38,572 nucleotides of DNA from Rubrivirga sp. GTDB lineage: Bacteria; Actinomycetota; Actinomycetes; S36-B12. The position numbers and the translations under genes are program-made. Within the stretch, counting starts at the first letter, position 1. Every line of letters starts with the position of its first letter. Shown here piece by piece: positions 11,776 to 13,630 of the stretch. The notes under the pieces were generated by a model. The model worked only from the letters and a program-made list of their open reading frames with translations. It was not told where the DNA came from and made no database searches. The DNA is taken from contig PBTV01000033.1 of assembly GCA_002729215.1 (NCBI GenBank), positions 1-38,572 on the forward strand, read 5' to 3'.

Positions 11776-11914
11776 CCGGGGCGTCGTCGTTCTCCTTCTG
11801 ATCCTCATGGACAGGTGCAGGTTCGAAGGCTCTTGGGCGCAAGGTCAATCACATATTTCCGGAGTTTCAACAACACCACCCGGCACGTTCGCGGGGTGTG
11901 GCAGGATATGCAAC

Positions 11915-11956
11915 GTGTCTAACACAGTCATCACCAGCATCATCATCATTACTTAG
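11915..11956 (+). CDS. cimA leader peptide with an Ile-Ile-Ile-Ile run
   Basis: From GTG 11915 a 13-codon frame encodes MSNTVITSIIIIT and ends in TAG at 11954-11956. Four consecutive isoleucine codons (ATC ATC ATC ATT, 11939-11950) sit just before the stop, with a fifth Ile codon and a Val codon a little earlier. AGGA at 11903-11906 gives a usable ribosome site. The stop codon overlaps the start of a perfect 11-base-pair hairpin, and a U-tailed terminator follows before cimA. The arrangement is that of a classical attenuator sensing charged tRNA-Ile, the end product of the citramalate route. I do not recall this leader being described for cimA; ilvB and leuA leaders are the known cases. Confidence 0.82.
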   Translation: MSNTVITSIIIIT

Positions 11957-11980
11957 CGCGTCGAGTTTTCTCGACGCGCT
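11955..11980 (+). promoter_or_regulatory. Leader hairpin of the cimA attenuator
   Basis: AGCGCGTCGAG (11955-11965) and CTCGACGCGCT (11970-11980) form a perfect 11-base-pair stem with a TTTT loop. Its 5' arm overlaps the leader stop codon, so a ribosome reaching the stop would block it while one stalled at the Ile codons may also reach its edge. It has no U-tail of its own. Confidence 0.8.
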
Positions 11981-12007
11981 GCCCTTCGCCAAGCGAGGGG
12001 CTTTTTT
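11981..12007 (+). terminator. Attenuator terminator before cimA
   Basis: GCCCTTCGC (11981-11989) pairs with GCGAGGGGC (11993-12001) through one G-U pair, with a CAA loop, and is followed by six T residues (12002-12007). It lies 21 bases before the cimA ATG. Confidence 0.85.
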
Positions 12008-12028
12008 GATGGTGGGAGAGAAGGAGAA

Positions 12029-13630
12029 ATGAGTACGTCACCGCTTCCCCAGCGCGACGCGTTTCACGTCTACGACACGACCCTGCGCGATGGTGCCCAG
12101 CGCGAGGGCATCTCGTACTCGGTCGTCGACAAACTCGCGGTGGCGCGACTGCTCGATGACTACGGCGTTGGCTTCATCGAGGGCGGCTGGCCCGGCGCCC
12201 TGCCCAAGGACACCGAATTCTTCGCACGGGCGCAAAGCGAACTGTCGTTGACGTATGCGCAGTTGGTCGCCTTCGGCGCAACCCGCAAGGCGGGGGTGGC
12301 AGTTGCCGAGGATCAGCAGGTGCGGGCCCTGCTGGACTCCGGTGCCCCGGTGATCACCCTTGTGGCGAAGTCCGACGTGTGGCACGTGGAGCAAGCCCTG
12401 AAAACCTCGCTTGATGAGAACGAGTCGATGATCCGAGACACCGTCGATTTCCTCATCGGTGAAGGTCGGCGGGTCTTCGTGGACATGGAGCACTTCTTCG
12501 ACGGGTACAAGCACGACCCCGACTACGGAGTGCGCCTGTTGGTCGCTGCCGCCGAGTCGGGCGCAGATGTCGGGGTCTTGTGCGATACCAACGGCGGAAT
12601 GCTGCCGCTGGGGATTGCCGAGATCGTGGCGGATGTGGCTGTTCGATCCGGCGTTCGGTTGGGGATCCACTGCCAGGACGACACCGCCAGCGCGGTGGCC
12701 AATACGGTAACTGCCGTAGCCTCGGGGGTGACGCACGTGCAATGCACCGCGAACGGATATGGCGAACGCACCGGGAACGCGGATCTGTTCCCCGTCATGG
12801 CGAACCTTCAGCTAAAGATGGGCATTGAATGTCTGCCCGAAGGCAAATTGGGGGAAACCCGGCGCATCTCGCACGCGATCGCAGAAATAGCGAACATCGC
12901 CCCCGACACCCATCAAGCCTATGCCGGTGTCTCGTCGTTCGCCCACAAGGCCGGACTGCACGCGTCAGCGCTCAAGGTGAATCCGGAGCTCTACAACCAC
13001 ATCGACCCCGCCCTCGTCGGTGGAGATCAGCGAGTGCTGGTTACCGAAATGGCGGGTCGGGCCTCGGTGGAGATGAAGAGCAAGGAACTGGGCTACGACA
13101 TCACCGGTGACGCCGAGCGGGTTACCCACATCGTGGAAACGGTCAAGGATCTGGAGTCCAAGGGCTGGACCTTCGAAGCCGCCGACGCATCCTTTGAGTT
13201 GATTCTTATGGGCTCCGACGAGAGTCAATCTCGATTCGAGGTGGAGTCGTGGCGGACAATCGTTGAGCAGGATGCCTCCGGTGACGTGCGCACCGAGGCA
13301 ACCGTGAAGGTCCGCGCCAACGGGGAACGCATGATCAGCACTGCTGAAGGCAATGGACCGGTGAATGCCCTGGACAAGGCGTTGCGCTCCGCCGTGACAT
13401 CCCTGCATCCGAAACTTGAGCCACTCGAGCTCATCGACTACAAGGTCCGCATCCTCGAGAAGAGCGACGCCGACACCTCCGGTACCGCGAGTGTGACCCG
13501 TGTTCTCGTGTCGACCTCCGACGGAAAGCGGGAGTGGACCACGCTCGGGGTGCACGAGAACGTCATCGCGGCCTCGTGGCGGGCGCTCGAAGATGCGTTG
13601 ACATACGGCTTGATGCGCTCGCAGGCGTGA
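12029..13630 (+). CDS. cimA: (R)-citramalate synthase
   Basis: CimA condenses pyruvate with acetyl-CoA to citramalate, giving a threonine-independent route to 2-oxobutyrate and isoleucine; LeuB and LeuCD carry out the following steps. The 533-residue protein has the HMG-CoA-lyase-like barrel with YDTTLRDGAQREG near residue 15, GGWPG, DTNGG and GIHCQDDTASA with the metal-binding residues. HKAGLHASA follows, and then a C-terminal regulatory domain of the LeuA type. Length and the GGWPGA motif fit the CimA group better than LeuA or homocitrate synthase. The ATG is preceded by AAGGAG (12021-12026), one of the few strong ribosome sites here, as needed when a leader peptide and terminator lie upstream. 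The Ile-rich leader suggests repression by isoleucine. Confidence 0.93.
   Translation: MSTSPLPQRDAFHVYDTTLRDGAQREGISYSVVDKLAVARLLDDYGVGFIEGGWPGALPKDTEFFARAQSELSLTYAQLVAFGATRKAGVAVAEDQQVRALLDSGAPVITLVAKSDVWHVEQALKTSLDENESMIRDTVDFLIGEGRRVFVDMEHFFDGYKHDPDYGVRLLVAAAESGADVGVLCDTNGGMLPLGIAEIVADVAVRSGVRLGIHCQDDTASAVANTVTAVASGVTHVQCTANGYGERTGNADLFPVMANLQLKMGIECLPEGKLGETRRISHAIAEIANIAPDTHQAYAGVSSFAHKAGLHASALKVNPELYNHIDPALVGGDQRVLVTEMAGRASVEMKSKELGYDITGDAERVTHIVETVKDLESKGWTFEAADASFELILMGSDESQSRFEVESWRTIVEQDASGDVRTEATVKVRANGERMISTAEGNGPVNALDKALRSAVTSLHPKLEPLELIDYKVRILEKSDADTSGTASVTRVLVSTSDGKREWTTLGVHENVIAASWRALEDALTYGLMRSQA

Follow-up and report, generated by a model that had tools for sequence, protein, structure and literature searches.

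Our results revealed that cimA, which encodes citramalate synthase, is preceded by a short leader that very likely subjects the gene to isoleucine-responsive attenuation. The leader lies in a stretch of 38,572 nucleotides from Rubrivirga sp. (hereafter, the window), and it combines a run of codons for the amino acid made by the pathway, an intrinsic terminator in front of the structural gene and, as modeled, folding that depends on the position of the ribosome. Interpreted as a whole, along the lines set out below, the element is probably an Ile-responsive, ribosome-mediated transcription attenuator. The conserved Ile-specific leader and its terminator fit control by the charging of tRNA-Ile; we infer that termination occurs and depends on tRNA-Ile, and likewise the sign of the leader hairpin's effect.

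A leader ORF, a hairpin, and a terminator in front of cimA

The features of the region are collected in Table 1. The leader ORF consists of the codons GTG TCT AAC ACA GTC ATC ACC AGC ATC ATC ATC ATT ACT TAG, and the four adjacent Ile codons that the original prediction had placed before its stop were correct to the base. Folding recovered the 11-bp hairpin (H1) that had been described as overlapping the stop, with the 5′ arm beginning inside the stop codon and taking in its AG. Both folding and a terminator scan (9 pairs, 7 of them GC) found the terminator (T) that had been placed, with six U residues, just before the ribosome site of cimA. In the window fold, T adjoins H1 with no spacer. The fold of positions 11890–12040 had an MFE of −60.8 (z = −4.4), which was equaled by 0 of 200 shuffles. 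The assignment of the downstream gene to citramalate synthase also held, as its product scored 587.6 bits against the TIGR00977 equivalog model, for which the cut-off is 450. Upstream of T, the window carries ilvE and a small ORF, and the genome from which the window was taken, a MAG with affinity to Candidatus Nanopelagicales, also encodes a threonine deaminase.

Table 1. Coordinates of the cimA leader and its gene in the window
Feature	Positions	Strand	Basis	Remarks
Extended −10 promoter, TGTGG-CAGGAT	11897–11907	+	Predicted, comparative	Start codon 7 nt downstream
Leader peptide ORF, MSNTVITSIIIIT	11915–11956	+	Sequence	GTG start, TAG stop (11954–11956)
Putative regulatory codon run, ATC ATC ATC ATT	11939–11950	+	Sequence and relatives	Ile x4
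Hairpin H1	11955–11980	+	Fold	11 bp; arms 11955–11965 and 11970–11980; loop UUUU
Intrinsic terminator T	11981–12007	+	Fold, terminator scan	9-bp stem 11981–11989 and 11993–12001; loop CAA; six U at 12002–12007
Shine-Dalgarno AAGGAG of cimA	12021–12026	+	Sequence	
cimA, citramalate synthase	12029–13630	+	TIGR00977 equivalog	533 aa; ATG at 12029

Conservation and distribution of the leader

Comparison of the regions upstream of cimA in 85 genomes of the window's family and at 80 named loci revealed a near-universal order of promoter, tiny Ile-run ORF, a stop beside or inside H1, H1, T, and cimA. The Ile run and the terminator are thus kept in relatives, and the loss of either among them, which the original prediction had named as counter-evidence, did not occur. 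A covariance model (R1), built on an alignment (A1) of 58 distinct sequences from relatives, matched 248 of the 395 genomes sampled from the class, 313 of which have cimA. Specifically, matches were present in 242/313 cimA-bearing genomes and in 6/82 genomes lacking cimA, although the genomes are related and these counts are not independent; in the remaining 71 of the 313, the R1 search detected no element. Many cimA-bearing genomes of two families, f27 and f21 (genus g55), had no match. Among the matches whose surroundings were fetched, the downstream gene was cimA in 68, from more than 20 families, and ilvB in 7. Streptomyces-like genomes carry MLSFAMIIGSRRAGPQ or MLSFATIIGSRRAGPQ before cimA. 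The leader of Streptomyces hydrogenans is degenerate (MLATTMIMGSSAPVRSDR; locus L109, 1217–1271): ATG ATT ATG (M-I-M) replaces the Ile run, while the promoter and the terminator are retained. In a sample of the phylum, R1 matched 26 of 197 genomes, some of them members of the class, and matches were sparser outside it; leaders with IIII nonetheless precede cimA relatives in other classes (R1 matches L212, L214, and L217). Weak second matches in the window's genus (L189–L192), together with L193–L194, were rejected as probable chance hits in coding DNA that do not involve cimA, ilvB, or leuA.

Both helices are also supported by covariation. In A1, which was not fitted to the structure, 95% of cells pair and covariation was 0.269, versus 0.178 when shuffled; a class-wide alignment of 92 sequences (A2), which was fitted to the structure and is hence biased towards it, gave 0.383 versus 0.205, and both partners had changed in 12 of its 18 pairs. 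Changes on both sides affected 6 of the 9 modeled pairs of H1, whose lowest three pairs (GCG/CGC) are practically invariant, and the stem of T covaries too. Because covariation in both helices accompanies the recurrence of the in-frame Ile run, H1, and T before cimA across the class, the leader is a feature beyond chance.

The geometry of the leader is conserved in a manner that centers on the Ile codons. Two to four adjacent in-frame Ile codons occur in 86 of 92 cimA leaders (runs of two in 38, three in 42, and four in 6), and the six exceptions mostly have Ile codons one codon apart. From the start of the last Ile codon to the first pair of H1, the distance is 8 nt in 58/86 leaders and 7–9 nt in 78/86. 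Leaders are of two types, in one of which the stop borders H1 while in the other it lies some 10 nt within the hairpin, and the Ile-H1 register is common to both; hence, it is the distance from the Ile codons to H1, rather than the position of the stop, that is conserved. The last Ile codon is ATT in 69/86 leaders (positions 11948–11950 in the window), whereas cimA itself favors ATC (p = 5e-28), a bias that points to a constraint at the nucleotide level. Upstream, a promoter consensus TGTGGCAnnnT was apparent: in 69/86 cimA leaders, the end of [TC]AnnnT lies 6–7 nt upstream of the start codon, as opposed to 2.7% of control start codons with this motif at such spacing, and TGTGG on the 5′ side of the −10 hexamer is conserved as well. 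Since this promoter sits at a fixed distance of 6–7 nt from the start codon, we predict that the codon lies at or beside +1 and that the transcript is leaderless.

Leader codons follow the downstream gene

Beyond the conservation of the run itself, the identity of the codons changes with the gene that follows. The cimA leaders hold 242 Ile and 65 Leu or Val codons, versus 9 and 29, respectively, in ilvB leaders (Fisher p = 2e-11). In the window's family, the ilvB leaders (MALVVVVIERAG, MANNVVVIRRAG, and MAQSLVVIERAG) have LVVI or VVVI where the cimA leaders carry Ile runs. Outside this class, a leuA relative follows a leader with LLLL (L215), and leuB-like genes follow leaders with VVII or VII (L216, L200). 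This natural swapping of codons between leaders, in effect a natural experiment, constitutes the strongest evidence that the codons act as a sensor.

Several further leaders were seen in passing. The window's own ilvB leader (542–638, + strand) has the architecture of the cimA leader: its ORF (542–580) looks leaderless, with TACAGT six nt upstream, and has mixed branched-chain codons, followed by a hairpin (570–605) and a flush terminator (606–633) with U5. The leuA leader of the window, of the LeuL type (9178–9137, − strand), shows no obvious U-tailed terminator. Read by eye, L200 (...SIVIIR) and L216 (MSFSQVVIIR) have a cimA-type architecture before an apparent isopropylmalate dehydrogenase gene (leuB). 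Also by eye, a cimA-type element with the leader MFTPRIII in L159 (reverse strand, 1277–1201) precedes a small ORF that is neither cimA nor ilvB and resembles an ACT-domain regulatory protein, and a leader ...RVLLIT in L199 precedes a gene resembling prephenate dehydratase.

Ribosome position and the proposed switch

The effect of the ribosome on the leader was modeled with its leading edge 12 nt past the first base of the A-site codon. In this footprint model, the masked part of H1 grows from 0–3 nt of the 5′ arm with the ribosome at the first Ile codon to about 5 nt at the last; with the ribosome at the stop, at least 8 nt of the arm are masked and, in nearly all leaders, all of it. Folding of the exposed RNA retained H1 at 0.92 with a stall at the first Ile codon versus 0.01 with the ribosome at the stop, while thermodynamic folding formed T at 1.0 in both states. 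These folding results, together with the duplex comparisons given below, indicate that the ribosome would toggle H1 alone and that T is untouched by base-pair competition.

The junction of the two hairpins may provide the coupling. Transcription would start at the leader start codon, with a 70S ribosome initiating at the 5′ end. With ample charged tRNA-Ile, the ribosome would reach the stop and its leading edge would cover the whole 5′ arm of H1, such that the terminator alone folds and RNA polymerase halts before cimA. When charged tRNA-Ile is scarce, the ribosome would stall at the first codon of the Ile run and leave H1 free to fold; H1, flush with T, would then hinder closure of the base of T in the polymerase exit channel and permit read-through into cimA. 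Coupling by abutment is proposed because the H1-T spacer is zero in 70/86 relatives and the ilvB leaders are flush too, while among about 20 unrelated sites that resemble terminators in these loci, 4 were flush on reading by eye. If cimA is under Ile-responsive attenuation, we would give this abutment switch slightly less than an even chance of being the way in which it works.

A different role for H1 would be that of a pause or protecting hairpin favoring termination, through anti-antitermination or by stacking on T, so that stalled ribosomes would remove H1 and raise read-through. The masking at the last Ile codon and the possible stacking of flush H1 and T speak for such a role. Against it, stalling is likeliest at the first Ile codon, where the ribosome leaves H1 free, and H1 is masked most by a ribosome at the stop; unless release is fast, the sign of the effect would be wrong. 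Moreover, T is a strong terminator on its own (mean −17 kcal/mol). We regard this role as possible but doubtful; given that H1 may refold after release and is partly masked at the last Ile codon, geometry does not by itself set the sign of its effect. A classical trp-type attenuator, in which stalling would let arm 2 of H1 and arm 3 of T form a base-paired antiterminator, is appreciably less probable. The order of codons, hairpin, and terminator does resemble that of trp and ilv attenuators, and an antiterminator involving the 3′ shoulder of the terminator and the P1 loop has been predicted for Corynebacterium ilvB-II (PMC10272879). However, the 2:3 duplex was weaker than with a shuffled arm 2 in 78/86 leaders (mean −3.3 versus −4.6), the 2:4 and 1:4 pairings were no better than shuffles in the window and 86 relatives, the H1 loop has just 4 nt in the window, and T forms in both ribosome states. 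The textbook switch implied by the original prediction thus found no counterpart, as no base-paired antiterminator was apparent in the window or the 86 relatives, and our claim is accordingly limited to an attenuator-like working rather than one of the classical trp type.

Readings that dispense with the ribosome fare worse. As a good intrinsic terminator that follows ilvE and a small ORF, T could in principle serve those upstream genes beside a chance ORF, with cimA driven from its own promoter and free of Ile control. This is highly improbable, given the conserved promoter upstream of T at fixed spacing, the association with cimA, and an in-frame Ile run retained in more than 20 families even as its codons vary synonymously between ATC and ATT. 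Direct sensing of isoleucine or tRNA by a riboswitch or T-box RNA would suit a position before an Ile pathway gene, but we consider it the most improbable reading of all: neither the window leader nor the leaders of 11 relatives had an Rfam match at the gathering score, aptamer-sized structure was absent, and the codons track the downstream gene. Matches to anti-hemB (22 bits versus 49.5) and tpke11, which surfaced below threshold in a loose search, were judged to be chance.

Relation to known leaders

The trp, ilv, leu, thr, and his leaders of Escherichia coli sense aminoacyl-tRNA through regulatory codons in their ORF and thereby govern an intrinsic terminator, and the cimA leader would be alike in this respect. 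The E. coli leaders differ in having a Shine-Dalgarno site and a competing 2:3 antiterminator, with the stop codon of trp placed between arms 1 and 2. Canestrari is said, in a citation in PMC13236596, to have described leaderless poly-Cys uORFs in mycobacteria in 2020; these share with the cimA leader a leaderless short ORF and a single-residue codon run, but the residue is cysteine and the genes are others.

The closest resemblance is to the leader attenuators of actinobacterial ilvB (PMC1262725, Seliverstov 2005; PMC10272879, the Corynebacterium ilvB-II motif; PMC13236596, Mycobacterium tuberculosis ilvB1), which likewise have a short ORF of branched-chain codons, a first hairpin reached by that ORF, and a U-tailed terminator. 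R1, although a model of cimA leaders, also matches the ilvB leaders of the window's family, such that one covariance model finds both. The cimA element departs from those attenuators in its target, in codons that are Ile-only as opposed to mixed Leu/Val/Ile, in an H1 loop that can be as small as 4 nt, and in that no base-paired antiterminator was found. Because they are Ile-only and precede cimA, these leaders represent a sister element rather than an ilvB leader; because the architecture is the same, they join that kind of attenuator with a new target and a single amino acid specificity. Counting against Ile-responsive attenuation are the 71 cimA-bearing genomes in which no element was detected, the M-I-M leader of S. 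hydrogenans, and the ilvB leader of Streptomyces coelicolor, in which codon changes were without effect, according to the citation of that work in PMC1262725. Similar, too, are LeuL (leuA) of Streptomyces and further leaderless peptides known from S. lividans (PMC8079986), which are likewise rich in the amino acid of their pathway, but the Streptomyces leuA leader, unlike that of cimA, is without a typical terminator (PMC8079986).

The original prediction had named attenuators of actinobacterial ilvB and leuA but none of cimA, and we likewise found none of cimA in the open-access literature, to which our search was confined. Conserved structures for amino acid pathways beyond those listed were not reported in PMC1262725, and the list of eight attenuators of S. 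lividans in PMC8079986 omits cimA. The element has apparently been overlooked, despite its presence in most sampled cimA-bearing actinomycetes, Streptomyces included.

Implications for isoleucine control in actinomycetes

More tentatively, and with odds clearly against it, a single principle might extend across the family of cimA, ilvB, leuA, and leuB leaders, whereby a ribosome-gated flush hairpin controls an autonomous terminator without a base-paired antiterminator. If true, a flush hairpin and terminator could not both close fully inside the polymerase exit channel; with no base-paired antiterminator, a general question on actinobacterial attenuators becomes testable. For the organisms themselves, the cimA leader would fill a gap in how actinomycetes control isoleucine, in that a separate sensor for Ile alone appears to serve the citramalate entry to isoleucine, distinct from that of ilvB, with its mixed codons, and that of leuA, for Leu. 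Given that threonine deaminase is also encoded in the genome, this sensor would decide the use of the second, citramalate, route. In most sampled actinomycetes, that route to isoleucine would very probably be on only when the ribosome is short of isoleucine.
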